A stretch of 64,000 nucleotides of DNA, taken from contig JAHCKM010000001.1 of the NCBI GenBank assembly GCA_026125795.1, positions 992,001 through 1,056,000 on the forward strand, read 5' to 3'. The translations under genes were made by a program, and so were the position numbers. How positions within the stretch are numbered: position 1 is the stretch's first letter; each line of letters opens with the position of its first letter. The notes under the pieces are model-generated. The model made no database searches. It saw only the letters and a list, made by a program, of their open reading frames with translations, and was not told the origin of the DNA. This DNA comes from Burkholderiaceae bacterium (GTDB lineage: Bacteria > Pseudomonadota > Gammaproteobacteria > Burkholderiales > Burkholderiaceae_C). Of this stretch, positions 1-57,606 are shown piece after piece.

Positions 1-574
1 GGTCGAACCAGACGCGCGCCCAGTTGAGCGCGCCCAGCAGCATCAGGCGCAGCGTGCGGCGGTCGGCGCCCGCCGGCAGGGGCAGCGCGGCGACGAGGGC
101 GCGGAACTCGTCCTCGTAGCCGGCGCGCAGCTCGCGCAGCCGGTCGGCGGCGGCGGGCACGTCCTGCGGATGCACGCGGATCAGGACCTGCGCGTAGTCG
201 CTGCTGCGCAGCACCGTCTCCAGATGGGCGCGGCAGGCCGCCTCGAGGCGATGCCACGGATCGGCGCGCGAGTCGGCAGCGCTCGCCGCGCGCACCGCGG
301 CCGCGAGTTCGCCGACGCCGGCCTCGTAGACGGCGACGAGCAACTCTTCCTTCGACGCGAAGTGGTAGTACACCGAACCCGGCAGCATTCTCACCGCCAA
401 CGCGATGTCGCGCATCGACGTCGCCGCGTAGCCGCGCTCGGCGAACAGCGCCGCCGCAGCATCGAGCAGTTCGGGCTGGCGGTTGTCGGAGCGCGGGGCT
501 CGGGCGGTGCGAACGGCAGGCACGGGAAGGCGGTCGGTCGGGTTGAAAAACAATCGTTCGTTTGGTTTAATCAT
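1..574 (-). CDS. TetR-family transcriptional regulator, C-terminus outside window
   Basis: Reading leftward from an ATG at 574, the frame stays open to the window edge, about 191 codons. An N-terminal TetR helix-turn-helix is clear: LLDAAAALFAERGYAAT, then MRDIA and GSVYYHFASKEELL. A ligand-binding helical domain follows. The first 17 residues (MIKPNERLFFN...) are unlike the family and contain the operator-like repeat at 547-560, so the true start may be the GTG at 523. The gene is divergent from the monooxygenase at 670 and may regulate it or itself. The family represses by binding palindromes and usually responds to a small ligand such as an acyl-CoA. Identity as TetR is secure; ligand and target are not known. 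Confidence 0.85.
   Translation of the reverse strand, partial: MIKPNERLFFNPTDRLPVPAVRTARAPRSDNRQPELLDAAAALFAERGYAATSMRDIALAVRMLPGSVYYHFASKEELLVAVYEAGVGELAAAVRAASAADSRADPWHRLEAACRAHLETVLRSSDYAQVLIRVHPQDVPAAADRLRELRAGYEDEFRALVAALPLPAGADRRTLRLMLLGALNWARVWFD
547..571. promoter_or_regulatory. Operator-like inverted repeat with plus-strand -10, between TetR and monooxygenase genes
   Basis: AAAACAATCGTTCG at 547-560 reads CGAAC-GATT-GTTTT on the minus strand, a diverged member of the CTAAC-N4-GTTAG family found at five other promoters here. A -10-like TTTAAT lies at 566-571 on the plus strand, 6 bases after the repeat, the same geometry as at 54503 and 57586. It would drive the monooxygenase at 670 with a leader of about 90 bases. 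It is the weakest of the six copies. Confidence 0.5.
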
Positions 575-669
575 GGCGTCGTGCTCCCGATTCGTCAAGA
601 CACCGGCGCGCTGCCGTTCCGATATCGGGCTTCGCTGGATGCCGTGCGTCTGCGCGCCGGCTGGAGAGA

Positions 670-2601
670 ATGGAACCCATGAACTCCGTCGCCATCGACC
701 GTCCTCGCCTGGAGCAGGCCGTGCAGGCCGCCGACCTCCGCGTGCTGCTCATGGTGCTGGTCCACACGACCGGCGACCTCGCCTGGCTCGAAGCGCCGTT
801 CCTTCCGCGCCGCGACGTGAACCTGATTCCCGACCCGGGTGCCGGCCTGGCGCCCGACGCACAGGAGCGCATCCGTGCGGCGGCGGTCGAGGTGCTCGCG
901 CGCGGCGCGGAGCCCGCGATCCATGATCCCGGCGACGAACTGATGCAGCGCATGATGTCGGTATGCCTGGGCGAGAACGTAGCGACCGAGTACGCCAGGC
1001 TCACGCGCGAGGAGATGGCGCTGATCCGTCGACGCTTGCGCTGGGCCGACGTTGGCGAGCGGTCGGCGGGGCGCGACGACCACGTGCTGATCGTCGGCGC
1101 CGGCATCTGCGGCATCGCGCTGGGCGCGAGCCTGGGCGAGCTCGGCATTCCGTTCACCATCGTCGAGAAAACGACGGAGATCGGCGGCACCTGGAACGTC
1201 AACCGCTACCCGGGCTGCGGCGTCGACACACCGAACCACGCCTACTCGTTCTCGTTCGGCCCGCGCTACGCGTGGCCGCGCTACTTCTCGCGGCGCGAGG
1301 ATATCCTCGCCTATCTGCTGGAAGTGGTCGGCTCGCTCGACTTGCGTCGCCACCTGCGCTTCTCGACGCGGCTGACGAGTGCGCGCTGGGACGACGAGGC
1401 CAAGCAGTGGGTGTCGCACCTGCTGGGCCCGGACGGCGAGTCGGTGCTGCGCTCGCGTTTCCTCGTCAGCGCGATCGGCCAGCTCAGCGACCCGTCGATC
1501 CCGCGCATCGAGGGCGCCGCCGACTTCACCGGCGTGCGCTTCCATTCGTCGAAGTGGCCGGAAGGATTGCCGGTCGACGGCAAGCGCGTCGCGGTCATCG
1601 GCACCGGCGCCACCGTCATGCAGCTGCTGCCCGAGATCGCCGACAAGGTGAAGTCGGTCGCCGTCTACCAGCGCTCCCCCCAGTGGTCGCGGCCGATTCC
1701 GGGCTACTCCGACCGGATCGGCCCCGACGCGCAATGGCTGCTCGCGCACGCGCCGTATTACGCGGCGTGGTTCCGCTTCAACATGTTCTGGCGCTACGGC
1801 GACGGGCTGCTCAAGACGCTCAAGAAGGATCCCGACTGGCCGCACCCTGAGCGCGCGGTCAACGCCGTGAACGACCGGCACCGCCGCGAGATGACGGACT
1901 TCATCCTCTCCGAACTCGCCGACCGGCCCGACCTGGTGCCCAAGTGCGTGCCGGACTATCCTCCCTACGGCAAGCGCATCCTGCTCGACAACGGCTGGTA
2001 CCGCACGCTGAAGAAGCCGACCGTCGAACTCGTCACCGAGCCGATCCGCCGCATCGTCTCCAACGGCATCGAGACCGCCGACGGCAAGCGCCGCGAGGCG
2101 GACATCCTCGTCTTCGCCACCGGCTTCAAGCTCGGCGAGATGGCGGCGCGCCTGGGCATCACCGGCGTCGGCGGACGCACGCTGGCGCAGGCCTGGGCGA
2201 ACGACGACCCCTCGGCCTACCTCGGCCTGGTGGCGCCGGGCTTTCCGAACCTCTTCTGCATGATCGGGCCGGGTTCCTCGCTCGGCCACGGCGGCAGCAT
2301 CACCTTCCAGGCCGAGTGCCAGGCGCGCTACATCACGTCGTGCATCGCGCAGATGGCCACGCGCGGCGTCGACGCCATCGACGTGCGGCCCGAGGTGCTC
2401 GACGACTTCATGCGCCGCTTCGACGCCGAACACCAGACGCTCATCTGGTCGCACCCCGGCATGTCGACCTACTACCGCAACCCGCGCGGGCGGGTCTACA
2501 CCGTGCTGCCGTGGCGGCTCGTCGACTACTGGATGTCGACGCACGATGCGGATCTGAGCGAGTTCCGTACCAGCCGTGCGACCACCGCCGTGACACCCTG
2601 A
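670..2601 (+). CDS. Flavin-containing Baeyer-Villiger-type monooxygenase
   Basis: A 643-residue protein with an N-terminal extension of about 135 residues, a FAD-binding Rossmann motif GAGICG near 143, the Baeyer-Villiger fingerprint FxGxxxHxxxW as FTGVRFHSSKW at 286-296, and a second dinucleotide (NADPH) motif GTGATV near 311. Enzymes of this family use NADPH and O2 to insert oxygen next to a ketone, giving an ester or lactone, in the cytoplasm. A second ATG at 679 is possible; GGAGA at 663-667 fits either. The extra N-terminal domain is shared with long BVMOs acting on bulky cyclic or steroid ketones. An aldehyde dehydrogenase fragment follows 16 bases on, consistent with an oxidative terpenoid-type pathway. 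Substrate unknown. Confidence 0.9.
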   Translation: MEPMNSVAIDRPRLEQAVQAADLRVLLMVLVHTTGDLAWLEAPFLPRRDVNLIPDPGAGLAPDAQERIRAAAVEVLARGAEPAIHDPGDELMQRMMSVCLGENVATEYARLTREEMALIRRRLRWADVGERSAGRDDHVLIVGAGICGIALGASLGELGIPFTIVEKTTEIGGTWNVNRYPGCGVDTPNHAYSFSFGPRYAWPRYFSRREDILAYLLEVVGSLDLRRHLRFSTRLTSARWDDEAKQWVSHLLGPDGESVLRSRFLVSAIGQLSDPSIPRIEGAADFTGVRFHSSKWPEGLPVDGKRVAVIGTGATVMQLLPEIADKVKSVAVYQRSPQWSRPIPGYSDRIGPDAQWLLAHAPYYAAWFRFNMFWRYGDGLLKTLKKDPDWPHPERAVNAVNDRHRREMTDFILSELADRPDLVPKCVPDYPPYGKRILLDNGWYRTLKKPTVELVTEPIRRIVSNGIETADGKRREADILVFATGFKLGEMAARLGITGVGGRTLAQAWANDDPSAYLGLVAPGFPNLFCMIGPGSSLGHGGSITFQAECQARYITSCIAQMATRGVDAIDVRPEVLDDFMRRFDAEHQTLIWSHPGMSTYYRNPRGRVYTVLPWRLVDYWMSTHDADLSEFRTSRATTAVTP

Positions 2602-2617
2602 AAAAAGGAACTTTGAG

Positions 2618-3420: not shown

Positions 3421-4581
3421 TCAGGCCGGGTTGCGCTGCACGAGCTGCTTGGCGATGATGATGCGCTGCATCTCGTTGGTGCCCTCGCCGATGAGCAGCA
3501 GCGGCGCGTCGCGGAAGTAGCGCTCGACGTCGTATTCGGGCGAGTAGCCGTAGGCACCGTGGACGCGCATGCACTCGAGCGCGTTTTCCATCGCCGCCTC
3601 GGTGGCGAAGTACTTCGCCATGCCGGCCTCCATGTCGCAGCGCTCGCCGCGGTCGTAGGCGCGCGCGGCGGACTGCACCAGCAGCCTGGCCGCCTCCACG
3701 CGCGTGGCCATCTCGCCGAGCTTGAGCTGGATCGCCTGGTGCTCGCAGATTGGCTTGCCGAAGGTCTTGCGTTGCTGCGCGTAGGCCACCGCGTCCTGCA
3801 TCGCCGCCGTGGCCACGCCCAGCCCGCGCGCGGCGACGTTGATGCGCCCGAGCTCCAGGCCACCCAGCACCTGCTGCAGCCCGCGGCCCTCGACGCCGCC
3901 GACCAGGCGCGACGCCGGCACGCGGTAGTCGTCGAAGCGCAGCTCGCAGGTGTCGATGCCGCGGTAGCCGAGCTTCTGGAGCTTGCGCGAGACCACGAAG
4001 CCCGGCCCCTTCTCGGCGATGAACAGACTCATGCCCCGGTGGCGCGGCTCGACGACGGGGTCCGTCTTCACCAGCAGCGCGATGCAGCCGCCCTGGCCGC
4101 TGTTGGTGATCCAGGTCTTGCTGCCGTTGACGACGTAGTGGTCGCCGTCCTTCACGGCGCGGGTGCGGATCGCCTGCAGGTCGGTGCCGGCGTCCGGCTC
4201 CGTGAGCCCGATGCCGCCGCGCAACGCCCCGCTGGCAAAGCGCGGCAGCAGCTCGCGCCGCTGTTCCTCGGTGCCGTGGCGCAGCACCGCGGCGGCCATG
4301 ATCAGGTGGGAGTTGATGACGCCGGACAGCGACATCCAGACCGACGCGATGCGCGCCACGACCGCGGCATAGGTGGCGGTGCTCAGGCCAAGCCCGCCGT
4401 ATTCGACCGGGATGATGCAGCCGAACAGGCCCATCTCCTTCATGCGTTCGACGATCGCCGTCGGGTACTCGTCGGCATGCTCGAGCCGCTTGACGTGCGG
4501 CCGGACCTCGACGCGCAGGAAGCGGTCGATCACATCCAGGATCGCGCCATCCTCGCCGTCCTGTCCGATATCCGGGTTCAT
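3421..4581 (-). CDS. Acyl-CoA dehydrogenase with canonical C-terminal catalytic Glu
   Basis: A 386-residue FAD enzyme that oxidises an acyl-CoA to the 2-enoyl-CoA and passes electrons to ETF. N-terminal helical domain to about 115, beta domain with GLTEPDAGTD and GSKTWITNSG, and C-terminal helical domain ending in EGTNEMQR. The glutamate at 366 matches the catalytic base of MCAD/SCAD-type enzymes. It is the only one of nine dehydrogenases in this window with that motif; its helix-G position, where six others carry Glu, is Gly (LELGR). The start overlaps the stop of the upstream MmgE/PrpD gene by 4 bases (ATGA), so the two are translationally coupled. Substrate unknown, perhaps glutaryl-CoA-like or short-chain by overall look. 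Confidence 0.9.
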   Translation of the reverse strand: MNPDIGQDGEDGAILDVIDRFLRVEVRPHVKRLEHADEYPTAIVERMKEMGLFGCIIPVEYGGLGLSTATYAAVVARIASVWMSLSGVINSHLIMAAAVLRHGTEEQRRELLPRFASGALRGGIGLTEPDAGTDLQAIRTRAVKDGDHYVVNGSKTWITNSGQGGCIALLVKTDPVVEPRHRGMSLFIAEKGPGFVVSRKLQKLGYRGIDTCELRFDDYRVPASRLVGGVEGRGLQQVLGGLELGRINVAARGLGVATAAMQDAVAYAQQRKTFGKPICEHQAIQLKLGEMATRVEAARLLVQSAARAYDRGERCDMEAGMAKYFATEAAMENALECMRVHGAYGYSPEYDVERYFRDAPLLLIGEGTNEMQRIIIAKQLVQRNPA

Positions 4582-5993
4582 CGGGCGAGCCCTCCCTGCG
4601 CCGCGAGTCCGTCCTGCAGGTCGCGGGCCGTCGTGCGCGCGTCGATGGCGAGCACGAGGTCGCGTACGCGCGCCGCGCGCGCCGGCGAAGCGACCAGGGC
4701 CATGTTGCCTTCGAACTTGTCGACGATCTCGGCGTTGGTGATCGGGCGCTCCTCGCCGCCTCGGTTCACATGCTCGCGGTGGCGCAGCTCGCGGCCGTCG
4801 TTCAGCGTCACGACGACCTCGCCGGAGTAGTACTTCGGGAAGGGCGAGTCGGGGTCGACTTCGTACTCCACCCGGGACGCCAGCGCGAGCACCTGTTCGT
4901 CGCGCAGCGCGGACTCGTCCAGGTCGGCGAGTCCGAAGCGGCCGCGCAGCAGCGCGGTGGCGACGATGTACGGGATGCTGAACTGCGCGTCGTAGCTGTT
5001 CTGCGGCCGCTTCTTGGTGGCCACCGGCTCGCACACCGTCTTCACCACCTCGGCCGGCACCAGCGCGCGCACGCCGCGGATGTCGGCCGCGCGCAGGCCG
5101 TGGCGCTCGCGCAGGATCGCTGCCGCGTCGGCGCAGGCGTGCGTGAAGTGGCAGGCGGGCAGCGGCTTGACGTTGACCTTCGCCAGCTCCCACACCTCGC
5201 CCAGCCCGGCCGTGGCGAGGTGCATCTCGCATGCTTCGGCGAAGCTGCCGAGATGGCTGGCGAACAGGCCGAACCGCCCTTCGTAGGCCTGGCGCGGGCC
5301 GACGAAGCCGTGGCGTGCCAGCGTGGCCGCGGTCAGGCCGGCGCCCGCCGCCCAGCCCGGGTGCATGCGCTTGGTCCAGGCGCCGTCCTGAAGGAACTCC
5401 ATGCTGCCCGAGGCCACCGAGAGGGCGATGCCCTGCGCCGAGGCGAGTTGGGCCGCGTTCAGGCCGAGCAGCCGGCCGGCGACGAGCGAGCAGGCGAAGG
5501 TCCCGATCAACCCGGTGGGGTGGAAGCCCACCTGGTGGAACCCGCCCTTGGCCACCGAGGCGAGCCGCGCGCCGACCTCCATGCCGGCCACGTGGGCGGC
5601 CAGCAGCGCCTCGCCGTCGAGCCCGGCCTGCGCCGCGGTGCCGAGCGCGCAGGGGAAGGTGCTCGCGGTCGCGTGGATCACCCCGGCGGCGTGCGTGTCG
5701 TCGAAGTCGAGGCCGTGCACGAGGATGCCGTTCATCAGCATCGCGTCGCGCGGCGCCAGGCGCGCCGCCAGCGCGATCACCGGCGTCGCGCCGCCGCCGC
5801 CGGAGAGCTCCTGCGCCGCGCTCAGCGAGCGATGCGCGAAGTCGTAGTGCGTCGATGCATGCGCGATGCCAACGGCGTCGAGGATCAGGTGGCGCGCCCG
5901 CTCGAGCACGGCGGTCGGGATGTCGGCAGGCCGAAGCCCTGCGGCGAATGCGGCCAGCGTGTCGGCAATCGTGGGGGGGCGGTCTTTGCCCAT
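4578..5993 (-). CDS. MmgE/PrpD family protein
   Basis: A 471-residue protein of the family that includes 2-methylcitrate dehydratase PrpD and cis-aconitate decarboxylase. Family signatures visible include HGLDFDDTH, HPTGLIGTF and an all-helical N-terminal half. ATG 5993 is chosen because GGAGA lies 7 bases upstream; a TTG at 6020 would extend into the -10 box. It is the first gene of a two-gene minus-strand operon with the dehydrogenase at 3421, and divergent from the crotonase at 6126, the operator-like repeat lying between. A second MmgE/PrpD gene lies at 60004, also in a dehydrogenase operon. The reaction is probably hydration, dehydration or decarboxylation of a carboxylic acid or CoA ester; the exact one is unknown. 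Confidence 0.85.
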   Translation of the reverse strand: MGKDRPPTIADTLAAFAAGLRPADIPTAVLERARHLILDAVGIAHASTHYDFAHRSLSAAQELSGGGGATPVIALAARLAPRDAMLMNGILVHGLDFDDTHAAGVIHATASTFPCALGTAAQAGLDGEALLAAHVAGMEVGARLASVAKGGFHQVGFHPTGLIGTFACSLVAGRLLGLNAAQLASAQGIALSVASGSMEFLQDGAWTKRMHPGWAAGAGLTAATLARHGFVGPRQAYEGRFGLFASHLGSFAEACEMHLATAGLGEVWELAKVNVKPLPACHFTHACADAAAILRERHGLRAADIRGVRALVPAEVVKTVCEPVATKKRPQNSYDAQFSIPYIVATALLRGRFGLADLDESALRDEQVLALASRVEYEVDPDSPFPKYYSGEVVVTLNDGRELRHREHVNRGGEERPITNAEIVDKFEGNMALVASPARAARVRDLVLAIDARTTARDLQDGLAAQGGLAR

Positions 5994-6019: not shown

Positions 6020-6041
6020 ATTATAGTCGAACGATTGTTAG
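6020..6041. promoter_or_regulatory. Operator-like repeat and minus-strand -10 box between MmgE/PrpD and crotonase genes
   Basis: CGAAC-GATT-GTTAG at 6028-6041 is a close match to the CTAAC-N4-GTTAG family. On the minus strand it is followed after two bases by a perfect -10 hexamer TATAAT (6020-6025), so a bound repressor would cover the promoter of the MmgE/PrpD-dehydrogenase operon. The crotonase at 6126 reads the other way and may share the control. Confidence 0.65.
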
Positions 6042-6125: not shown

Positions 6126-6914
6126 ATGAATCAGGCAACGGACGCCCCGATCGTGGGCGTGGACTTCGCGGGGCACGTGGCGGTCGTCGAGATCCGCCGG
6201 CCGCCGCACAACTTCTTCGACATCCCGATGATCCAGGCCATCGCGGACGCCTTCGAGCGGCTCGAGGCCGACGCGAACTGCCGCGCGATTGTCCTGTGCG
6301 CGCAGGGCAGCGCCTTCTGCGCCGGGGCCAACTTCGCCAATAGCGACGCGACGCCGCCACAGAAGAGCCCGCGCGCGGTGAACCCGCTGTACTTCGAGGC
6401 GATCCGGCTCGTTTCGTGCGCCAAGCCGGTGGTCGCCGCCGTGCACGGGCCGGCGATCGGCGGCGGCACGGGCCTGGCGCTGGCGGCCGACTTCCGCGTC
6501 ACCTGCGCGGAGGCGCGTTTCTCGGTCAACTTCAACCGCCTCGGCATCCACCCCGGGTTCGGGCTGTCGTACACGCTGCCGCGGCTGGTGGGCCCGCAGC
6601 AGGCGGCGCTGCTCTTCTACACGGGTCGGCGCATCGGTGGCGACGAGGCGCTGCGCATTGGCTTGGCCGACGTGCTGGCGGCACGGGACCAGGTCCGCTC
6701 AAAGGCGATCGAGCTGGCGGACGAGATCGCGACCTCGTCGCCGATCGCGGTGCAGTCCACCCGCGCGACCTTGCGCGCGGGTTTCGTCGAGCAGTTCCGC
6801 CTCGCGGTGGCGCGGGAGAGCATCGAGCAGAACGCGCACTTCAAGACCGAAGATTTCGGCGAGGGCGTGAAGGCGATGGCCGAGCGCCGACCGCCGCGGT
6901 TCAAGGGTCGATGA
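6126..6914 (+). CDS. Enoyl-CoA hydratase/isomerase (crotonase) family protein
   Basis: A 262-residue crotonase. The oxyanion-hole segments are clear: GSAFCAGANFAN and AVHGPAIGGGTGLALAADF. By eye, both glutamates used by classical enoyl-CoA hydratase (rat Glu144 and Glu164) are replaced, the first region reading FNRLGIHPGFG and the second LLFYTGRRI, so plain hydration of a 2-enoyl-CoA may not be its reaction. ATG 6126 is preceded by GAGGGG at 8 bases. It is divergent from the MmgE/PrpD gene and about 85 bases from the shared operator. A decayed copy of its 3' half lies at 8885-9230. Confidence 0.85.
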   Translation: MNQATDAPIVGVDFAGHVAVVEIRRPPHNFFDIPMIQAIADAFERLEADANCRAIVLCAQGSAFCAGANFANSDATPPQKSPRAVNPLYFEAIRLVSCAKPVVAAVHGPAIGGGTGLALAADFRVTCAEARFSVNFNRLGIHPGFGLSYTLPRLVGPQQAALLFYTGRRIGGDEALRIGLADVLAARDQVRSKAIELADEIATSSPIAVQSTRATLRAGFVEQFRLAVARESIEQNAHFKTEDFGEGVKAMAERRPPRFKGR

Positions 6915-24811: not shown

Positions 24812-26878
24812 TCAGAAGGTCATGGCCAGGCGCGTGCCCTGGTCGATCGCGCGCAGCGCGTCGAGCTCGCCGGCGCGCTCGGCGCCGCCGATCAGCGCCG
24901 GCGCGACACCCAGCCCGCGCAACTCGTCGGCCAGCGCGTTGTCGGATTCCTGCCCGGCGCAGATCACCACCGTGTCCACGTCCAGCACGCGTGCCTCGCC
25001 GCCCACGCGCAGGTGCAGGCCGGCGTCGTCGACGCGTTCGTAGCTGCAGCCGGACAGCGTCTGCAGGCCGCGCTGCTCGAGCCGCGCACGCAACGCCCAG
25101 CCGGTGGACAGGCCGAGCGTGCGGCCGGGCTTCTCGGGCTTGCGCTGCAGCAGCGTCACGCTGCGCAGGGGCCGTGGCGGCCGCGCTTCGCCCAGGCCGC
25201 CCGGCGCGGCCCGGGCGGTGCTGACGCCCCACTCGGCCAGGAAGGGATCGACGCTCGTGTTCGTCAGGCTTTCGGCAGGCGCGGGCGCCTCCTCCGCTTC
25301 GTGCAGCAGGTATTCGGCCACGTCGAAGCCGATCCCGCCCGCGCCGATCACCGCCACGCGGCGGCCGGCCTGGCGGCGCCCGGCAAGCAGATCGGCATAG
25401 CTGACGACCTTGGGATGATCGATCCCGGCGATCGCCGGCACCCGTGCTCGCACTCCGGTGGCCACCACCACATGGTCGAAGCTGCCCTTGGCGAGGTCTG
25501 CCGCCGCGGGGCGGCGGTTCAGGTGAAGCGCCACGCGCGCGTCGGCGAGGCCGGTACGGAAGTAGCGCAGCATCTCGTGGAACTCCTCCTTGCCCGGTAC
25601 CTGGCGGGCGAGGTTGAGCTGGCCGCCGACCTCGGCACCCGCCTCGTACAGGGCGACCTCGTGGCCGCGCTGCGCTGCGGTGATGGCGCAGGCCAGGCCG
25701 GCCGCGCCGGCGCCGACCACCGCGACCCGGCGGCGGGCGCGCGGGGCGGGCATCTCGTCGAACTCGAGTTCGCGCCCGGCGCGCGGATTCACCAGGCACG
25801 AGGTCGGCTGATGAGTGAAGATGAAGTCCAGGCAGGCCTGGTTGCAGGCGATGCAGGTGTTGATCGCATCCGGCCGCCCGGCCGCCGCCTTGTTGACGAA
25901 GGCGGCGTCGGCGAGGAAGGGACGCGCCATCGAGACCATGTCCGCGTCGCCCGAGGCGATGATCTCGTCGGCGACCTCCGGGGTGTTGATGCGGTTGGAG
26001 ACGATCAACGGGATCTTCAGCGCCCGCTTGATGCGTGCCGCGGCGAAGCGGAACGCGGCGCGCGGCACCAGATAGGCGATCGTCGGGATGCGCGCCTCGT
26101 GCCAGCCGAAGCCGGTGTTGATGACGTCGGCGCCGGCCGCCTCGACCGCCCGGGCCAGCGCGATCACCTCGTCGGCCGGCGCACCGCCTTCGACCAGATC
26201 GAGCGCCGAGATGCGGTACATGATCAGCGCCTCGGGGCCCAGCCGCTCGCGCGTGCGGCGCACGATCTCGACCACGATGCGGTGGCGGTTCTCCACGCTG
26301 CCGCCGAACTCATCGCTGCGGTCGTTGCATCGCCGGGTGGTGAACTGGTTCAGGAAGTAGCCTTCCGAGCCCATGATCTCCACCCCGTCGAACCCGGCGC
26401 GCATCGCCAGTTCGGCGCAGCGCACGTAGTCATCGATCGTGCGCCAGACCTCGGCCGTCTCGAGCGGGCGCGGCACGCGGCGGTTGATCGGCGAAGGGAT
26501 GCTCGAGGCCCCGACCAGACCCGATGTCTTGCCGTAGCGGCCTGTGTGCAGGACCTGCAGGATGATCTTGCCGCCGGCGGCGTGCACCGCCTGGGGGATC
26601 GGCCGCAGCGCATCGGCCTCGTCCTCGGTGATCAGCGTCGGGCCATGGTCGTCGAGCTTGGCTTCCGCGTTCATCGCGAAGCCCCCGGTGACGATCAGCC
26701 CGGCGCCGCCGCGTGCCCGTTCGGCGTAGAAGGCGGCCAGCCGCTCGGCGCTGCGGTCCAGCCGCTCGATCCCGGTGTGCATGGAGCCCATCAGCGTGCG
26801 GTTGCGCACGGCGTGGGCGCCGAGGCGGATGGGGGCCAGCAGGGCGGGGAAGGCTGGAGGGGTGGACATGTCTCGCAT
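24812..26878 (-). CDS. 2,4-dienoyl-CoA reductase-like NADH:flavin oxidoreductase
   Basis: A 688-residue FadH-type protein. An N-terminal old-yellow-enzyme TIM barrel (to about 350) is followed by the 4Fe-4S cluster motif CIACNQACLD plus the distal Cys of TSCLVNP, then FAD (VVGAGAAGLACAI) and NAD(P) (VIGAGGIGFDVAEYL) domains. FadH reduces 2,4-dienoyl-CoA to a 3-enoyl-CoA, allowing beta-oxidation past a double bond; related enzymes reduce other enoates. ATG 26878 is chosen because a -10 box ends five bases upstream; an ATG at 26869 is also possible. It is first of a long operon and lies beside an operator-like repeat. Confidence 0.9.
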   Translation of the reverse strand: MRDMSTPPAFPALLAPIRLGAHAVRNRTLMGSMHTGIERLDRSAERLAAFYAERARGGAGLIVTGGFAMNAEAKLDDHGPTLITEDEADALRPIPQAVHAAGGKIILQVLHTGRYGKTSGLVGASSIPSPINRRVPRPLETAEVWRTIDDYVRCAELAMRAGFDGVEIMGSEGYFLNQFTTRRCNDRSDEFGGSVENRHRIVVEIVRRTRERLGPEALIMYRISALDLVEGGAPADEVIALARAVEAAGADVINTGFGWHEARIPTIAYLVPRAAFRFAAARIKRALKIPLIVSNRINTPEVADEIIASGDADMVSMARPFLADAAFVNKAAAGRPDAINTCIACNQACLDFIFTHQPTSCLVNPRAGRELEFDEMPAPRARRRVAVVGAGAAGLACAITAAQRGHEVALYEAGAEVGGQLNLARQVPGKEEFHEMLRYFRTGLADARVALHLNRRPAAADLAKGSFDHVVVATGVRARVPAIAGIDHPKVVSYADLLAGRRQAGRRVAVIGAGGIGFDVAEYLLHEAEEAPAPAESLTNTSVDPFLAEWGVSTARAAPGGLGEARPPRPLRSVTLLQRKPEKPGRTLGLSTGWALRARLEQRGLQTLSGCSYERVDDAGLHLRVGGEARVLDVDTVVICAGQESDNALADELRGLGVAPALIGGAERAGELDALRAIDQGTRLAMTF

Positions 26879-26883: not shown

Positions 26884-26926
26884 AGTGTACAGCTAACTAA
26901 CGTATGTTCGACCAGGATGATATACT
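26884..26926. promoter_or_regulatory. Divergent promoter region with operator-like repeat, FadH-like and transglutaminase genes
   Basis: CTAAC-GTAT-GTTCG at 26897-26910 belongs to the shared repeat family. On the minus strand a -10-like TACACT occupies 26889-26884, leaving five bases to ATG 26878, so that message may be leaderless. On the plus strand TATACT at 26921-26926 is a good -10 for the transglutaminase operon. A repressor on the repeat would block both directions. Confidence 0.6.
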
Positions 26927-27027: not shown

Positions 27028-27729
27028 ATGTCGCCCCAACCATCCAGCGCCACGGCACAGCCCGACGACTACCTGAGCCCCGGCCGCTTTGTCGACAGCG
27101 ACCACCCCGCCGTCCGCGCCTTTGCCCGATCGCACGCCGACCCCGCGATGCCGGCCCGCGACATCGCGGTCGCGCTGTACTACGCGGTGCGAGACGGGTT
27201 CCGCTACGACCCGTACCGGTTCGACATGTCGGAAAGCGGCTTGAAGGCGAGTCGCGTGATCGAGAACGGCTTCGGGTTCTGCGTCCCGAAGGCGGCGCTT
27301 CTGGCGGCTGCCGCCCGCGCCAGCGGGGTGCCCGCGCGGCTTGGATTCGCCGATGTGCGCAACCATCTGACCAGCCCCCGGCTGCGCGACATGATGAAGA
27401 CGGACATGTTCGTCTTCCACGGCTACACCGAGCTGCTCATCGACGGGATGTGGCGCAAAGCCACGCCGGCCTTCAACCTCGCGCTGTGCGAGAAGGCCAG
27501 GGTCAAGCCGCTCGAGTTCGACGGCGCAGGCGACTCGATCTTTCACGAGTTCGACGCCCTGGGCCGCCGCCACATGGAGTACGTCGACGAGCGTGGCAGC
27601 TACGCCGACGTCCCGCGCGAGGAGATGCTCGCGGTCTTCCACGAGGTCTATCCGAACTACCGCGACTGGATCCGCGAGGGCGCCGCCGGCGACTTCGAGC
27701 GCGAGGTCGACACGGGCCCGCGGACATGA
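27028..27729 (+). CDS. Transglutaminase-like domain protein
   Basis: A 233-residue protein with a transglutaminase/cysteine-protease fold: a Cys in GFGFCVPKAALLAAAARA, a His in FHGYTELLIDG and an Asp or Asn soon after. DIAVALYYAVRDGFRYDPY matches the start of the domain. No signal peptide is visible, so it is cytoplasmic. The catalytic chemistry (amide hydrolysis, acyl transfer) fits but the substrate is unknown. Start ATG 27028 is the first in-frame ATG after the promoter that fits the domain. Its stop overlaps the alpha/beta-hydrolase start by 4 bases (ATGA). Such proteins are not usual in beta-oxidation loci. Confidence 0.8.
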   Translation: MSPQPSSATAQPDDYLSPGRFVDSDHPAVRAFARSHADPAMPARDIAVALYYAVRDGFRYDPYRFDMSESGLKASRVIENGFGFCVPKAALLAAAARASGVPARLGFADVRNHLTSPRLRDMMKTDMFVFHGYTELLIDGMWRKATPAFNLALCEKARVKPLEFDGAGDSIFHEFDALGRRHMEYVDERGSYADVPREEMLAVFHEVYPNYRDWIREGAAGDFEREVDTGPRT

Positions 27730-30959: not shown

Positions 30960-30980
30960 CTAACGTTTGTTTGATACACT
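30960..30980. promoter_or_regulatory. Operator-like repeat and plus-strand -10 box before thiolase-like gene
   Basis: CTAAC-GTTT-GTTTG at 30960-30973 is a close match to the shared repeat. TACACT at 30975-30980 follows after one base as a -10 for the plus-strand operon, with GGAG at 30989-30992 before ATG 31002. On the other side the repeat begins only 5 bases from the farther start candidate of the SDR gene, so both directions should be affected. Confidence 0.6.
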
Positions 30981-31001: not shown

Positions 31002-32174
31002 ATGAGCCAGCGTGAAGCCGTGATCGTCGGCGTGTCCGATCTGCCGTTGAAGGACGGCAAGGCGGTGCAGCCGATGTCGGTGCTGCAGGCGCAGGCGCTG
31101 TGCGCGCGCGACGCGCTCGCGGACGCGGGCATCCCGATGCGGGAAGTGGACGGGCTGCTGAGCGCGGGCATGTGGGGCGTGCCGGGCCCGGGCCAGCTGT
31201 CGACGGTGACGCTGTCGGAGTACCTCGGCATCGCGCCGCGCTTCGTCGACGGCACCAACATCGGCGGCTCGGCCTTCGAGGCCCATGTCGCGCACGCCGC
31301 CACAGCCATCGAGGCGGGGCGCTGCGAGGTGGCGCTCATCACGTATGGCAGCCTGCAGCGCAGCGAGGCGAGCCGCAACCTCGCCGGGCGGCCCTCGGTG
31401 CTGACCATGCAGTACGAGACGCCCTGGGGCATGCCCACGCCGGTGGGCGGCTACGCGCTGGCCGCGATGCGCCACATGCACGAGTACAGCACCACGTCGC
31501 GGCAGCTGGCCGAGATCGCGGTGGCCACGCGCAAGTGGGCGGCGCTGAACCCGGCGGCGACGATGCGCGGCCCGCTGTCGGTCGACGACGTGCTCGCCAG
31601 CCCGATGATCGCCGACCCGCTGCACCTGCTCGACGCCTGCCTCGTCACCGACGGCGGCGGCGCGGTCGTGATGACCACCGCCGAGCACGCGCGCGCCATC
31701 GGGCACCGCCGCCCCGTGCACGTGCGCGGCTGCGGCGAGGCGCACACCCACTGGACGATCGCCGCGATGCCCGACCTCGCGCGCCTCACGGCTGCCGAGA
31801 TCGCCGGCCGCGAGGCCTTTGCGCGGGCCGGCATCGGGCACGACGCCATCGACGTGGTCGAGGTCTACGACTCGTTCACGGTCACCGTGCTGATGACGCT
31901 CGAGGCGCTCGGCTTCTGCAAGCGCGGCGAGGGCGGTGCGTTCGTGTCGGAACAGCGCACCGCGCCGGGCGGCGCCTTCCCGATGAACACCAACGGCGGC
32001 GGACTGTCCTACGCGCACCCGGGCATGTACGGCATCTTCCTGTTGATCGAGGCCGTGCGGCAGCTGCGCGGCGAATGCGGCGAGCGCCAGGTGAAGGACG
32101 CCGCCACCGCGCTCGTGCATGGCACCGGCGGCACGCTGTCCAGCGGCGCCACCTGCATCCTTTCGACGCGCTGA
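31002..32174 (+). CDS. SCP2-type thiolase-like protein (Ltp2-like candidate aldolase)
   Basis: A 390-residue thiolase-fold protein starting EAVIVGVSDLPLKDGKAVQP. Where degradative thiolases have the nucleophile Cys of CASG, it has TNIGGSAFEAHVAHAA, so cysteine-based thiolysis is unlikely. HGTGGTLSSGATCILS closes the C-terminal active-site segment. Ltp2 and its relatives, which also lack the nucleophile, act with a DUF35 protein as retro-aldolases that cut C-C bonds of hydroxyacyl-CoAs in steroid side chains; the DUF35 gene follows here by 18 bases. GGAG precedes the ATG by 9 bases. The aldolase role is an inference from this pairing. Confidence 0.85.
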   Translation: MSQREAVIVGVSDLPLKDGKAVQPMSVLQAQALCARDALADAGIPMREVDGLLSAGMWGVPGPGQLSTVTLSEYLGIAPRFVDGTNIGGSAFEAHVAHAATAIEAGRCEVALITYGSLQRSEASRNLAGRPSVLTMQYETPWGMPTPVGGYALAAMRHMHEYSTTSRQLAEIAVATRKWAALNPAATMRGPLSVDDVLASPMIADPLHLLDACLVTDGGGAVVMTTAEHARAIGHRRPVHVRGCGEAHTHWTIAAMPDLARLTAAEIAGREAFARAGIGHDAIDVVEVYDSFTVTVLMTLEALGFCKRGEGGAFVSEQRTAPGGAFPMNTNGGGLSYAHPGMYGIFLLIEAVRQLRGECGERQVKDAATALVHGTGGTLSSGATCILSTR

Positions 32175-46199: not shown

Positions 46200-47597
46200 T
46201 CAGGCGCTCGCGCTGTTCGAGCGCAGCAGTTCGTCGAGCGTGCGTTCGAGGTGGCGCAGCGAATTGCACTCGCGCGCGATGTGGCAGTAGGGCGCGTAAC
46301 GCTTCATCTCCGAGTCGCCCAGGCCCCAGAACGAGCGCGGCTCGGGGTTGAGCCAGATCACGCGGCGCGCCCGGCCGTAGAGGGTCTTCATCACCTCGGT
46401 GCGCGCCTCGCCGCGGTTGTTGCGCGCATCGCCCAGCACGAGCACCGTGGTGCGGTGGTCGATGCGGTGCATCAACTGCTCGTCCAGGTCGAGCAGCATC
46501 TGGCCGTAGTCGGTGCCCGAGCCGCCCACGGCGTTCAGCACCTTGTCCACCGCCTGCTCGACCGGCAGCGCCTCGAAGGTGGCGCCCACGTCGACCAGGT
46601 GGTTGGTGAACGCGAACGACTGCACGTCTGACAGCAGCTCGTCCAGGCTGTACAGGAACAGCAGCAGGAAGCGCGCGTACTGGCGCACCGAGCCGCTCAC
46701 GTCGCAGATGGCCACCACCTTGGGCCGCTCGATGCGCGTGCTGCGCCAGTAGGTCTCGAACAGCACGCCGCCGTAGGCCGCGTTGGCGCGCTGCGTGCGG
46801 CGGAAGTCGAGCTGCCCGCGCTGCTCGCGCCGCTTGCGCCGCGCGTGGCGTTCGGCCAGCCGGCGCGCCATCTTGCGCACGATCTCGTGCATGCGGGCGA
46901 AATCGCGCCGGTCGATGCTGGACAGCTTCTGCGACTGCAGGAACTCGTCGTGCAGCTCGCGCGTCGGCGCGGTGCCGTACATCGCGAGCTTGCGCTCGAC
47001 GAAGTTGCGCACCTCGTTGAAGAGGCGCTTGCGCGCCAGCTCGAGATCGGCGTGCCGTTGCGGCGCGAGCGTCTGGCGGCGCGCGTCGGCGATCTCGCGG
47101 TCGAGCAGCTCGAGGCCCATCGCCTGCTGGATCTTTTGCGTGTAGTGGCCCTTCTGGGTGAAGAACCAGATGTCGGTCAGGCCCACGTCGCGGGCGGCCT
47201 GCTGCATGCGCCGCGCGAGCGCCGCGGAGTCGCCCGCCATCAGCAGCTGCGACAGGGCCTGCCCGGCGCTGCCCTGGCAGCCGCCCGGGCCGCCGCTGCC
47301 CTGGCCGCTGCCCTCGGGCGGCGGGCTCTGCGGCCGTGCCGCGGCACCCGCCCCGGCCACCGCGACCGCGCCCGTGCCGAACGAGTCGAAGCGGAAGAAG
47401 CGGTCGAAGGTCGCGTCGAAGATCGCCCGGTCGGGCAGGTTCTTCGCCAGCGTCGTGCCGAGCGCGGACTTCAGCAGGTCGCGCTCGCTCCAGCCGACCA
47501 GCTCGGTCGCGCGGGCGGCGTCGATTTGCGCGTTCAGGCTGACGTCGAGATCGCTGCCGCGCAGCGCCTTGAAGAAGTCCTCAAGCGTGGCTTGCAT
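46200..47597 (-). CDS. VWA-domain (CoxE-like) protein
   Basis: A 465-residue protein with a C-terminal von Willebrand A domain carrying the MIDAS residues DVSGS near 290, then GGSGTDYGQ and VLVLGDARNN. The N-terminal half is helical and contains a Gly/Pro-rich linker (about 85-110). It overlaps the MoxR gene by 17 bases. MoxR-VWA pairs act as chaperones or cofactor-insertion machines (CoxDE, NorQD, CbbQO types). No metalloenzyme client is encoded beside it, so a client among the acyl-CoA enzymes is possible. Confidence 0.9.
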   Translation of the reverse strand: MQATLEDFFKALRGSDLDVSLNAQIDAARATELVGWSERDLLKSALGTTLAKNLPDRAIFDATFDRFFRFDSFGTGAVAVAGAGAAARPQSPPPEGSGQGSGGPGGCQGSAGQALSQLLMAGDSAALARRMQQAARDVGLTDIWFFTQKGHYTQKIQQAMGLELLDREIADARRQTLAPQRHADLELARKRLFNEVRNFVERKLAMYGTAPTRELHDEFLQSQKLSSIDRRDFARMHEIVRKMARRLAERHARRKRREQRGQLDFRRTQRANAAYGGVLFETYWRSTRIERPKVVAICDVSGSVRQYARFLLLFLYSLDELLSDVQSFAFTNHLVDVGATFEALPVEQAVDKVLNAVGGSGTDYGQMLLDLDEQLMHRIDHRTTVLVLGDARNNRGEARTEVMKTLYGRARRVIWLNPEPRSFWGLGDSEMKRYAPYCHIARECNSLRHLERTLDELLRSNSASA

Positions 47598-48549
47598 GGG
47601 GCAGCTCCGCGTTCTTGCGCGCCTTGTCGAGCAGCGCCGGCAGCTGCTCGGCGGTGCTCGTGATGTCCAGCTCGAACTTGAGGAAGACGTTCAGCGTGTC
47701 GCGCACCATGTCCAGGCTCAGGTGCTCCGAGTTGAGCAGCAGCAGCGTCTTGGCCCAGTCGATCGTCTCGCTGACCGAGGGCTGCTTCTTCAGGTCGAGC
47801 TCGCGCACCGCCTGCACGAAGGCGACGAGTTCCCGGTTCAGCTTCTCGCTCAGCCCGGGCACGCGCCGCTCGAGGATGCGCCGCTCGACCGCCGCGTCGG
47901 GGAAGGGGATGTGCAGGTGCAGGCAGCGGCGCTTGAGCGCGTCGCTCATCTCGCGCGTGTTGTTGCTGGTCAGGAAGACGAGCGGCTTGACCTTCGCGGC
48001 GATCGTGCCCAGCTCGGGCACCGAGACCTGGAAGTCCGACAGCACCTCGAGCAGGAAGGCCTCGAACTCGGGGTCCGACTTGTCGACCTCGTCGATCAGC
48101 AGCACGCAGCCGCGCTCCTGGTGCAGCGCCTGGTACAGCGGACGCGGCTCGAGGAAGTGTTCGGAGAAGAACAGGTCGTCATGCGCATGCAGCCGTTCGA
48201 TCGAGGCCGCCAGCCCGACGCTGCCTTGCATCAGTTCGGCGAGCTTGTCCTTGAGCAGCTGCGTGTAGAGCAGCTGCTTGCCGTACTTCCATTCGTACAG
48301 CGCCTTCGACTCGTCCAGGCCCTCGTAGCACTGCATGCGGATCAGCGGCACGTCGAGGATCGCGGCCATGCTCTTGGCGAGCTCGGTCTTGCCGACACCG
48401 GCCGGCCCCTCGACCAGCACCGGCTTCTCGAGGTTGAACGCGAGGTAGACCGCGGTGGCGAGCTGGCGGCTCGCGATGTAGTCCACGTCGGCGAGGCGCG
48501 ACGACACGACGTCGACGCTCTCGAAGTGGGTGTCATGCAGCGACTTCAT
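47581..48549 (-). CDS. MoxR-family AAA+ ATPase
   Basis: A 322-residue AAA+ ATPase with Walker A EGPAGVGKTE at about 47-56, Walker B VLLIDEVDK near 145-155, sensor 1 FLTSNNTRE and an arginine finger region DALKRRCLHLHIP. MoxR proteins remodel partner enzymes, usually with a VWA protein, which is encoded next and overlaps by 17 bases. It overlaps the dehydrogenase-like gene at 48533 by 17 bases as well. Such overlaps place it firmly inside the acyl-CoA operon. Confidence 0.92.
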   Translation of the reverse strand: MKSLHDTHFESVDVVSSRLADVDYIASRQLATAVYLAFNLEKPVLVEGPAGVGKTELAKSMAAILDVPLIRMQCYEGLDESKALYEWKYGKQLLYTQLLKDKLAELMQGSVGLAASIERLHAHDDLFFSEHFLEPRPLYQALHQERGCVLLIDEVDKSDPEFEAFLLEVLSDFQVSVPELGTIAAKVKPLVFLTSNNTREMSDALKRRCLHLHIPFPDAAVERRILERRVPGLSEKLNRELVAFVQAVRELDLKKQPSVSETIDWAKTLLLLNSEHLSLDMVRDTLNVFLKFELDITSTAEQLPALLDKARKNAELPHASHA

Positions 48550-50835: not shown

Positions 50836-50837
50836 GG

Positions 50838-52825
<1,988 letters not shown>

Positions 52826-52826
<1 letters not shown>

Positions 52827-54445
52827 CACATCCGCGCCACGCCGAAGCTGTTCGGCCGCAGGCTGCGCGCGCGGCCTTCGCGGCAGACGGCGAGCGCCAG
52901 CGCGAGCACGGCGCGCGTGTCGCGCGGGTCGATGATGCCGTCGTCCCACAGCCGCGCGGTGGCGAACAGCGAGTGCGATTCCATGTCGAATCGCTGCAGG
53001 ATCTCGGCGCGCATCGCCTCCAGCGCGGCTTCGGGCGGCGCCTTGCCGGCGCGTGCCATCTTCTCCTCGGTGACGATGCGCATCACCATCGCCGCCTGCT
53101 CGCCGCCCATCACCGCGACGCGGGCGTTCGGCCAGGCGAACAGGAACTGCGGGTCGTAGGCGCGCCCGCACATGCCGTAGTTGCCGGCGCCGAACGAGGC
53201 GCCGGTCATCAGCGTGATGCGCGGCACCTTGCAGTTGGTGACAGCCTGGATCATCTTCGCGCCGTGCTTGATCATGCCGGCCTGCTCGACCTCCTTGCCG
53301 ACCATGAAGCCGGTGGTGTTCTGCAGGTAGACGAGCGGCGTACCCGACTGATCGCACAGCTGCATGAACTGGGTGGCCTTGTTGGCGCCCTGCGGGTCGA
53401 TCGGACCGTTGTTGCCGATGAAGCCGCAGAGCTGGCCCTCGATGGCGCCGTGCCCGCAGACGGTGGCCGCGCCGAACTCGGGCTTGAAGTCGAGGAAGTC
53501 GGAGTCGTCGATCAGCCGCGCCAGCAGCTCGCGCACGTCGTAGGGCTGGCGGTAGTCGGGCGGCACCAGGCCGACGATCTCGTCGGCCGCGTAGCGCGGC
53601 GGCTTCCATCGGCGCGTCTCGGCGCCGCCGGCGCGCTCGTTCCAGGGGAGCCGGGCGAGCAGGTCGCGTGCGATGCGGATGCCGTCGGCGTCGTCCTCGG
53701 CCAGGTACTCGGCGACGCCCGAGACCCGCGTGTGCATCTCGGCCCCGCCGAGTTCCTCGTCGCCGGCGATCTCGCCGGTGGCCGCCTTCAGCAGCGGCGG
53801 CCCGGCGAGGAAGGCCTTGGCGCGGCCGCGCACCATGATCACGTAGTCGGACATGCCGGGCAGGTACGCGCCGCCCGCGGTGGAGTGGCCGTGCATCACG
53901 GTGATCTGCGGAATGCCCGCGGCCGACAGACGTGCCTGGTTGGCGAAGCCCCGGCCGCCCTCGATGAACACCTCGCCGACGTGCATCAGGTTGGCGCCGC
54001 CCGATTCGACCAGCCGGACCACCGGCAGCCGGTTCTCCAGCGCGATGGCCTCGGCGCGCAGGCTCTTGCGCAGGCCCATCGGCGTGATCGTGCCGCCCTT
54101 GATCGCGCTGTCCGAGGCGATGACCATGCAGCGGATGCCCGCGACAAGGCCGATGCCGCTGATCAGCGCCCCGCCGAGCACGTTCTTCTCGCCGTCGTCG
54201 TCGTGCAGGCGAAAGCCGGCCAGCGTCGACAGCTCGAGCCAGGGCGAGCCGCGGTCGAGAAGCAGCGCGATGCGCTCGCGCGGCAGCAACTGCCCGCGCT
54301 CCCGAAAGCGTGCCTGCTGGGCGTTGGAGACGTCCCGGACGCGGCGTTCGAGGCCCCGGAAGTGGTCGATGAGCGCCCGCATCCCGGCGCGCTGACGCCC
54401 GAACTGCTCCGACTGCGGATCGACCGCCGTTTCGATGATGCCCAT
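52826..54445 (-). CDS. Acyl-CoA carboxylase beta subunit (carboxyltransferase)
   Basis: A 539-residue carboxyltransferase. The CoA- and biotin-binding halves read LVESGGANLMHVGEVF, then HGHSTAGGAYLPGMSDY and, in the C-half, FIGNNGPIDPQGANKAT and TGASFGAGNYGMCGRAY. It resembles LiuB/MccB and AtuC, which carboxylate methylcrotonyl- and geranyl-CoA. Deciding between them needs a comparison of the acyl-pocket glycines and bulky residues. First gene of the eleven-gene minus operon, divergent from the TetR gene at 54534, with the best operator copy between. Confidence 0.9.
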
Positions 54446-54502: not shown

Positions 54503-54526
54503 CTAACGCTTGTTAGCTGCTATAGT
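54503..54526. promoter_or_regulatory. Best operator-like palindrome and -10 box before TetR gene
   Basis: CTAAC-GCTT-GTTAG at 54503-54516 is a palindrome with perfect five-base arms. TATAGT at 54521-54526 follows as a -10 on the plus strand and ends seven bases before ATG 54534, so the TetR message probably starts at or within a base or two of its own start codon. The repeat also lies about 58 bases before the carboxylase operon on the other strand. The position argues for autoregulation by the TetR protein. Confidence 0.7.
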
Positions 54527-54533
54527 GTAGCCC

Positions 54534-55235
54534 ATGGCGGATGGAGTGGACAGTCAGCGACGGCACGAGATCCTGCGCGCAGCGGCACTCCTGTTCCGGC
54601 GCCACGGCTACGAGCGCACATCGGTGCGCCAGATCGCCGACGCGCTGTCGATGACGTCGGGCTCGCTCTTCTACCACTTCAGTGCCAAGGAAGACATCCT
54701 CGTCGCGGTGATGGAGGAGGGCATCCGCGATGTGTTCGCGCACGTGCGCGGAGCGCTCGACCGCGAGCCGCGGATGCCCGAGAGGCTGCTCGCGATGGTG
54801 CGATCCCACCTGAGCGTCCTTCTCGGCCCGCACCTGGACGCGCTGATGGTGCTCGTCTACGAGTGGCGCAGCCTGTCCGCGCCGGGCATGAAGCGCGTGC
54901 TCTCCTGGCGGAACAGCTACGAGGACCTGTGGGACGGCGTGCTGGCGACGGCGGCGGCTCAGGGATGGGTGCATCGCGACGTGGTTCTCGTCCGACAGAC
55001 CGTGCTCGGCGCATTGAACTGGACCGGTCAGTGGTACCGCCACGACAGCCGGCTCGACGTCGACACGCTCGCGCTGCGCATGTACGAAATGCTGTTCCCC
55101 CGTCTGCACGAGCAACTGGGCGATCGTCCGGTGCCTGCTGCCGGCGAGGGCGGGGCGGTTGCGAACGTCGGCGCGATGCGCTGTGCCGATGCGGCGGCCG
55201 CGGATAGATCGTTTCCATCGATGGAGAAAGCCTGA
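54534..55235 (+). CDS. TetR-family transcriptional regulator
   Basis: A 233-residue regulator with the N-terminal HTH ([19 protein letters not shown], then [25 protein letters not shown]) and a helical ligand domain; [10 protein letters not shown] resembles acyl-CoA-responsive TetRs. The last 25 residues (from AAGEGG) are low-complexity and probably disordered. It is the prime candidate for binding the palindrome that overlaps its promoter and recurs at five other promoters. It is one base apart from etfB (TGA, then GTG), so it is co-transcribed with the electron-transfer genes. Confidence 0.92.
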
Positions 55236-55236
55236 A

Positions 55237-56928: not shown

Positions 56929-56943
56929 CGGCGCCTCTCCGCG

Positions 56944-57562
56944 GTGTTGGGGCCGCCTTGCCCAGAGCGCGGCGGCTCACTTGATGTCGCCCGCAGGGCC
57001 CTGGCCTTGCGTGCCGCCGCCTGTGTCGCTGTCGCGTTTGCCGCGCCGCACGCTTCGGCCCAGGAGGGTGATTCGGGGCGTCGCCTGTATGTAGACGGCG
57101 GTCTGAGCGTGCACGACCCGGATCGGGCCCGCACGCTTGCGGTCGGCGTGCTGCTGGCATCCTCCGCGCTCCCGGCACTGCCGCGCACCGCAGGGCTCCT
57201 TTCGTTTCACTGGGATCTGTCGCTGACCCGCTGGCAAACGCCGCGCAGTACGGGCCGCGGCGCCGACTTCACCCAACTGGCAGCTGCGGCGGTGTGGCGC
57301 TACGGATTCGGCGGCGCAGCGAGCGGTTGGTTCTTCGACCTTGGGCTGGGTGCCAGCATCTACGATCGCCCCTACTTCTCCGGCGAACGCAGGTTTCAGC
57401 ACGGGCTTGCAGTTCACGGAAACTTTGGGTCTGGGTTATCGGCTCGGTCGATCGAGCCGATGGGAGGTTTCGCTGCGCGCCCAACATGTGTCCAACGCCA
57501 ACATCAAGAAGCCCAATCCGGGCGAGGACGTGCTGCGCCTTCGAGTCGCCACGGCCTTTTGA
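56944..57562 (+). pseudogene. PagL-like lipid A deacylase, frameshifted
   Basis: A signal-peptide-like start (ALRAAACVAVAFAAPHASAQ) is followed by beta-barrel-like strands (FDLGLGASIYDRPYFSGERRF). The homology then jumps frame to STGLQFTETLGLGYRLGR and AQHVSNANIKKPNPGED, which holds the His-x-Ser-Asn catalytic motif of PagL. The change is at the TTT run at 57394-57396 and is explained by one extra T. As read, the enzyme would lose its catalytic motif. PagL removes an acyl chain from lipid A in the outer membrane. The start is uncertain (GTG 56944 or TTG 57007). It could also be a homopolymer sequencing error. Confidence 0.75.
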
Positions 57563-57585
57563 TGCCGACGCGCGCCCGGTTCTAC

Positions 57586-57606
57586 CTAACGATTGCTTGG
57601 TAGAAT
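57586..57606. promoter_or_regulatory. Operator-like repeat and -10 box before the dehydrogenase at 57637
   Basis: CTAAC-GATT-GCTTG at 57586-57599 belongs to the shared repeat family, with a change in the second arm. TAGAAT at 57601-57606 follows after one base as a -10. Same geometry as at 30960 and 54503. It would control the five-gene plus-strand operon running to 63037. Confidence 0.6.

Follow-up and report, generated by a model that had tools for sequence, protein, structure and literature searches.

Candidate operators of a proposed regional TetR regulon in a large acyl-CoA catabolic island of a Burkholderiaceae bacterium

Introduction

KstR and KstR2, the TetR repressors of the mycobacterial cholesterol regulons, respond to CoA-thioester ligands and act at many promoters within one large catabolic region. 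Closer to the case described here is AtuR of Pseudomonas aeruginosa and P. citronellolis, with its close homologs PfiT/PA2885 and RdmA; AtuR is described in PMC9973270 as binding AGCAAGCGCTTGG/CCAAGCGCTTGCT. A crystal structure of PfiT is reported, and its identity with PA2885 of P. aeruginosa is given as 78%, in PMC3873459. PsrA of Pseudomonas is also a TetR protein; its palindrome has an AAAC-N4-GTTT core, its consensus is G/CAAAC-N2-4-GTTTG/C, and it binds the rpoS promoter too (PMC13104628). Here, we analyzed a stretch of 64,000 nucleotides (the window; contig C1, positions 992,001–1,056,000) from the genome of a Burkholderiaceae bacterium (assembly GCA_026125795.1; 6.57 Mb, 6 contigs), in which an initial annotation had proposed six CTAAC-N4-GTTAG-like operators under one TetR repressor, encoded at 54534. 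Sites of this family were found far beyond the window, together with two paralogs of the TetR protein. In the open-licence literature, as far as its accessible parts go, we found neither a description of this regulon nor the sequence CTAACN4GTTAG or CTAACNNNNGTTAG.

Candidate Operator Sites in the Window

All six copies named in the initial annotation were present in the window. They were scored with a matrix 26 bp wide, built on 54 sites in the gaps between genes of the matching regions of three relatives (G308, a Burkholderiales metagenome-assembled genome, 400 kb; G309, Caenimonas sedimenti, 180 kb; G300, Xenophilus azovorans, 220 kb) and on none from the genome of the window. Gene boundaries are those of our own simple gene caller.

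551–564, minus strand: operator copy (named at 547, best register at 551), 23.0 bits; the same promoter site in G308 and G309.
6028–6041, plus strand: operator copy between the MmgE/PrpD-like (minus) and enoyl-CoA hydratase-like (plus) genes, 29.3 bits; kept in G308 and G300.
26897–26910, plus strand: operator copy between the OYE/FadH-like (minus) and transglutaminase-like (plus) genes, 23.9 bits; kept in G308, G309, and G300.
30960–30973, plus strand: operator copy before the thiolase-like gene at 31002, 29.2 bits; kept in G308, G309, and G300.
54503–54516, plus strand: operator copy between the carboxyltransferase (minus) and AtuR-like TetR (plus) genes, 24.5 bits; exact CTAAC-N4-GTTAG.
57586–57599, plus strand: operator copy before the acyl-CoA dehydrogenase/CaiB/MmgE/CitE operon, 27.4 bits; -10-like TAGAAT 1 bp beyond.

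The form CTAAC-N4-GTTAG is exact only at 54503, which is, as had been proposed, the most symmetric of the six; elsewhere the arms are close, and the family consensus is C(T/G/A)AAC-G-nn-T-GTT(A/T/C)G. The operator form of the island is also written as CTAACGnnTGTTAG. Two details of the initial annotation had to be corrected: the first copy fits better at 551–564 than at 547, and four copies rather than five lie in divergent gaps by our gene calls, those at 30960 and 57586 being in tandem gaps. The proximity to -10 boxes was confirmed, since the best -10-like hexamers begin 1, 2, 7 or 10, 1, 4, and 1 bp past the six sites. The 14-mer at 26897 is identical to the site C1:856835 at the promoter of a TetR paralog (C1:856088). 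Of the six, conservation is poorest for the copy at 57586, which G308 and C. sedimenti lack and which is weak in X. azovorans; the 6028-type site was missing at the MmgE/PrpD ortholog of C. sedimenti.

Regional Confinement and Placement of the Sites

The matrix was run on a 400 kb neighbourhood, taken in 20 stretches and joined with the window to 440 kb, and on a 400 kb control from three other places in the same genome; statements about the whole genome come from consensus scans. At ≥14 bits, 29 sites were found in the 440 kb region, 27 of them in gaps and 2 no more than 11 nt from a called start, while the control contained no gap site and a single one in a coding sequence (CDS). At 10 bits, the region gave 31 gap and 4 CDS sites versus 3 and 6 in the control. 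All 29 sites lie inside C1:743,147–1,049,599 (~307 kb, ~5% of the genome); 23 of them are beyond the window, reaching C1:743,147. Gaps make up only 7.8% of this site-bearing stretch, yet 27 of the 29 sites fall there. The earlier estimate that chance placement looks improbable is borne out by these gap and CDS counts.

A scan of the whole genome with CTAACGNNTGTTAG at ≤2 mismatches returned 58 rows, corresponding to 54 distinct places. All 14 places with 0–1 mismatch were inside C1:743,147–1,046,516; altogether, 24 places fell in C1:743–1,050 kb and 30 in the other 6.26 Mb, none of these 30 with fewer than 2 mismatches. With CTAACGNNTGTTNG, five of five perfect matches were in the same stretch, and rows with one mismatch were spread more widely. 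Good consensus matches are not scattered over the genome, a point on which the initial annotation had made its proposal depend.

Divergent gaps contain 18 of the 29 sites and tandem gaps 11, divergent gaps being 27 of the 135 gaps longer than 30 bp in the stretch. A TANNNT hexamer begins 0–4 bp outside the 14-mer at 16 of 29 sites, versus 2.7% of random gap positions. By a crude operon rule (same strand, gaps ≤120 bp), 186 of the 285 genes of C1:743–1,056 kb belong to operons headed by a site. The G+C content of the 440 kb region (0.691) was similar to that of the controls (0.686–0.696).

Open reading frames resembling IS21-type transposases were noticed by eye at C1:741421–742863, just left of the first operator; they mark a possible edge of the island.

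TetR Paralogs

Three AtuR-like TetR proteins are encoded in the island:

54534–55235, plus strand: AtuR/PfiT-like TetR repressor, the leading candidate binder (TetR_N, TetR_C_24).
1–574, minus strand: second TetR paralog, running past the window edge to C1:991927 (TetR_N, TetR_C_24; 36–37% identical to 54534).
C1:856088–856729: third TetR paralog (TetR_N, TetR_C_24; 39% identical to 54534).

PF00440 and PF17932 were above cut-off in all three, placing them in the TetR family. The genome has 30 TetR_N matches, and the two closest to 54534 (C1:856,088 and C1:991,927) are both in the island. The start of the second paralog was called at 574; homolog alignment suggests a start near 523. The nearest solved structures of the 54534 protein were 4mxm/4mo7, named regulator I2 (E ~3e-43, residues 9–182, phmmer), which we take to be PfiT; PA2885 is presumably the atuR locus.

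A site stands in an autoregulatory position, before all three TetR genes and before each of their reciprocal-best-hit orthologs in the three relatives; that of the second paralog is kept in G308 and C. sedimenti. A fourth TetR gene of the island (C1:902,856) lay more than 5 kb from any site of ≥14 bits. The initial annotation had proposed one regulon, with the 54534 protein as the presumed binder. The promoter of its gene does carry a conserved site, but as it is one of three paralogs placed likewise, a regulon of a single TetR is no more than one possible reading.

Conservation in Relatives and Distribution

Sites of ≥12 bits within 350 bp were compared between reciprocal best hits (E ≤ 1e-20, >45% identity; the rest were dropped); the relatives' own sites had helped to train the matrix, and those of the window genome had not. 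Conservation, which the initial annotation had suggested looking for, was found: the site was retained in 70 of the 91 ortholog pairs where the gene of the window genome has one and occurred in 12 of 425 where it has none, the ortholog pairs not being independent because one divergent site may count for two genes. Orthologs of 54534 were collected at 14 loci, the fourteenth of which begins inside the gene. Exact CTAAC-N4-GTTAG arms were present 31 bp upstream in all 13 loci with upstream DNA, and the 14-mer was identical in 12; since close relatives account for several of these loci and a single genome for two, fewer than 13 independent lineages are represented. Three orthologs from genus g135 (60–61% identical) have a site with one mismatch 52 bp upstream. 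Promoter-specific variants are kept as well, namely CTAACTAACG..TGTTCGA at the TetR promoter of C1:856088 and in the OYE/transglutaminase gap, and GTCTACC(G/T)AACGCTTGACAG at C1:959337. Likeness between promoters is limited to ~14–20 bp.

The island occurs patchily in Burkholderiales. Among 299 genomes of the family, 6 contain a match to 54534 at E ≤ 1e-40, counting that of the window; the three other members of the genus drawn, two of which are only 82–85% complete, gave none. One perfect CTAACGTTTGTTAG site (L073, G098:C12:840259) was seen in a genome of the same genus without such a match.

Co-occurrence of sites and TetR was analyzed over 26 genome handles at ≤1 mismatch; two of them (G255 and G299) are the same assembly, and 11 of the 14 ortholog loci were covered. 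Among the distinct TetR-bearing genomes, 14 of 15 had 4–24 site rows (at least, in the case of G255), and all 10 genomes without the TetR had 0–3. Among the matches listed, the rows of X. azovorans, G307, G308, and C. sedimenti were on one contig, within 67–324 kb; the other TetR-bearing genomes are drafts with rows on several contigs. Close orthologs of the C1:856,088 paralog (73–84%) were found in 13 of the 14 genomes with a 54534 match and sites, and those of the second paralog (77–84%) in G304–G309 only.

Predicted Target Genes and Island Content

The genes next to the six window sites are as follows:

679–2601, plus strand: flavin monooxygenase-like (FMO-like/Pyr_redox); upstream site also in G308 and G300.
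4578–5993, minus strand: MmgE/PrpD-like (PF03972, PF19305).
6126–6914, plus strand: enoyl-CoA hydratase-like (PF00378).
24812–26869, minus strand: OYE/FadH-like (PF00724; mycofactocin OYE_2 and BaiCD models below cut-off).
27028–27729, plus strand: transglutaminase-like (PF01841).
31002–32174, plus strand: thiolase-like (PF22691; NF004811 above cut-off).
52826–54445, minus strand: acyl-CoA carboxyltransferase (PF01039).
57637–58797, plus strand: acyl-CoA dehydrogenase heading the CitE operon (PF00441; PF02771 match from 57652).

For the last of these, the ATG at 57637 is the likelier start over that called at 57679, judging by the sequence. Of the genome's 59 acyl-CoA dehydrogenase N-domain matches, 33 fall in the stretch C1:743–1,056 kb. 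Beyond the window, the island encodes a MeaB protein together with a methylmalonyl-CoA mutase-like pair, as well as HMG-CoA lyase-like, biotin carboxylase, aldehyde dehydrogenase, AMP-ligase, and MaoC proteins. Among the proteins listed, ABC transporters of the amino-acid type and receptors of the Bug type could be recognized by eye. NCBIfam/Pfam names were obtained for 31 of the 285 proteins of the region; they are generic, none naming a growth substrate.

Three further observations concern the content of the island. A MeaB-like GTPase (C1:988571–989806; L042:8571–9806) that ends in a fused hotdog (PaaI-like) thioesterase domain at its C-terminus adjoins the methylmalonyl-CoA mutase-like pair. 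A direct duplication of 1,234 bp with 98.9% identity (C1:916340–917995 and C1:925736–927277) lies in what appear, by eye, to be biotin-carboxylase fragments. A MoxR-like ATPase and a CoxE/VWA-like protein (by eye) lie at 46200–48549 of the window, within the acyl-CoA region.

Proposed Regulon and Alternatives

On the strength of these sequence comparisons, we consider it quite probable that the sites serve as operators in a regional TetR regulon and that at least one of the three AtuR-like paralogs binds them, represses, and is released by an acyl-CoA. The regulon over the window genes proposed in the initial annotation thus holds in substance, but its extent was understated, being about five times the window length. 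At least one of the TetR proteins encoded at 54534, at window 1–574 and beyond, and at C1:856088–856729 would bind the ~14 bp pseudo-palindrome C(T/G/A)AACGnnTGTT(A/T/C)G. The dimer would cover the stretch just upstream of the -10 box, which the site often abuts, so RNA polymerase would be blocked at ~29 sites over 307 kb, and ~186 of 285 genes would be held down. The paralogs would also repress their own genes. The CoA-thioester of the pathway, or the free acid, is the putative signal for release; we infer an acyl-CoA or a pathway acid as the ligand from the target genes. Upon release, transporters, CoA ligases, acyl-CoA dehydrogenases, hydratases, thiolases, and carboxylases would come on jointly. 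The position of nearly all sites directly before genes and their conservation in related bacteria suggest that a small set of related repressors switches a very large acid-degrading region on and off together.

How the sites may be shared among the three paralogs can be read in more than one way. Each TetR might have its own subset, the flank-extended CTAACTAACGnnTGTTCGA sites belonging to the C1:856088 paralog and the others to 54534, with limited cross-talk. GCTAACTAACGTATGTTCGA is common to the site C1:856835 and to that at window 26897, and close forms occur at orthologous promoters and, in two of the three relatives, at the carboxylase ortholog of C1:865035; however, the half-site cores grade into one another with no clean break, and we regard such a division as possible but doubtful. 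A second reading, according to which the 54534 protein alone binds all sites while both paralogs act on other targets or are bystanders under its control, appears rather unlikely. It agrees with the symmetry of the 54503 copy and its exact arms before 13 of 13 orthologs, and many sites persist in genomes where the window 1–574 paralog has no close ortholog (9 rows in X. azovorans, 24 in G301, 10 in G302, and 11 in G303). On the other hand, the C1:856088 paralog has close orthologs in all but one (G307) of the 14 genomes with 54534 and sites, and the promoter of each paralog keeps its own site variant across species.

More tentatively, the three diverged repressors may form one integrated switch over the ~300 kb and 29 sites of this single operator family, each sensing a different acyl-CoA and possibly occupying half-sites staggered by 4 bp as competing or stacked dimers; we would not expect this in full. 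QacR binds as two staggered dimers. Over 92 sites, relatives included, second matches at exactly 4 bp offset had 5.6–6.0 mismatches on average versus 8.3–10.1 at other offsets; swapping the flanks between sites hardly changed these averages, and close matches were only mildly more frequent in the real sites (25 versus 17.2; 29 versus 22.5), which leaves staggered dimers as an idea only. If the integrated switch were true, the island would represent a multi-input regional regulon, its operator having moved away from the AtuR type that is still present in part of the wider family.

A general fatty-acid regulator, either PsrA or the betaproteobacterial FadP or LiuQ, could also be thought of as the owner of the sites. 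The PsrA consensus is near the CAAAC-N4-GTTTG variants of the island, and FadP and LiuQ are TetR proteins of betaproteobacteria. Nevertheless, all places with ≤1 mismatch are in the island, though 26 of the 59 acyl-CoA dehydrogenase matches are elsewhere, and a 54534 match in 6 of 299 family genomes is too patchy for a housekeeping regulator, making this explanation very unlikely. That the sites are a dispersed repeat or a by-product of promoters is hardly credible: they do lie in gaps and adjoin -10 boxes, but control gaps had none at 14 bits, the G+C content is like that of the controls, and only ~14–20 bp are common between promoters.

Several observations weigh against a regional regulon of AtuR-like repressors. 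The site is lost in 21 of the 91 ortholog pairs. Raw rows over the whole genome are fewer for CTAACGNNTGTTAG (31 and 27) than for its reversed-pattern control (104 and 102), and likewise for CTAACGNNTGTTNG (22 and 22 versus 33 and 32); as the reversed control is richer in raw rows, the signal is carried by the matches with few mismatches, by where they lie, and by their position in gaps, not by the count. The g135 genomes (G222, G135, and G292) have 4–5 rows on 3–5 contigs, not above the reversed control (5–8), and the g135 loci also have an AtuR-like word ~320 bp upstream. No rows were found in G131, which is 87% complete and has a TetR match from residue 82 on with no upstream DNA. In G307, sites occur although the C1:856088 paralog has no close ortholog there. 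In X. azovorans, the flavin-monooxygenase promoter keeps its site although the neighbouring TetR has no close ortholog in that genome; the second paralog is thus not needed for the persistence of the sites.

The operator of AtuR itself belongs to the same set of objections. Its core CAAGCGCTTG was absent from the 440 kb, and its 12-mer GCAAGCGCTTGC was at least 3 mismatches off upstream of 13 of 13 orthologs of 54534; AtuR specificity is therefore not transferable to the island. Among 25 more distant homologs (38–50% identical), an AtuR-type site within 2 mismatches was found in 8 (L158, L174, L176, L177, L179, L180, L181, and L182; starts approximate) and an island-type site in none. Taken with the absence of the AtuR operator, these counts suggest that the island TetRs form a group related to AtuR but using an operator of their own.

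The regional regulon nevertheless remains our preferred reading, and it would give access, by way of its regulation, to a very large acyl-CoA catabolic region that is uncharacterised and found repeatedly in Burkholderiales. Candidate repressors are named and co-responding promoters predicted, by which the inducer, and hence the substrate, becomes findable. The data also suggest operator divergence within the AtuR/PfiT family and paralogous repressors sharing one operator over hundreds of kilobases.

Comparison with Known Systems

The operator of KstR and KstR2 is unlike that of the island. KstR2 structures matched 54534 at E ~2e-14, a weaker sequence relation and one to a different phylum. FadP and LiuQ were judged by distribution: the confinement of the sites to one region and their patchy occurrence speak against either being the island regulator.

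The initial annotation had noted a resemblance of the core to PsrA sites, with differing outer bases. This was a fair description, yet the nearest solved relative of 54534 is PfiT. T is the commonest base at position 2 (A 11, G 14, and T 29 among the 54 training sites of the relatives), although some sites fit the PsrA form, for example, CAAACGGTTGTTTG in G308. PsrA also acts at rpoS, whereas the good sites of the island are confined to one region.

AtuR is the closest of these systems, 54534 being its TetR homolog as compared via the PfiT structures (E ~3e-43). Set against atuABCDEFGH, divergent carboxyltransferase and biotin carboxylase genes and an acyl-CoA dehydrogenase gene are near 54534, for which NCBIfam gave generic models only. 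Like AtuR, the 54534 protein faces a carboxylase/acyl-CoA dehydrogenase operon. The AtuR site, however, is reported at the atuA promoter, whereas the island has ~29 sites over 307 kb and three TetR paralogs.

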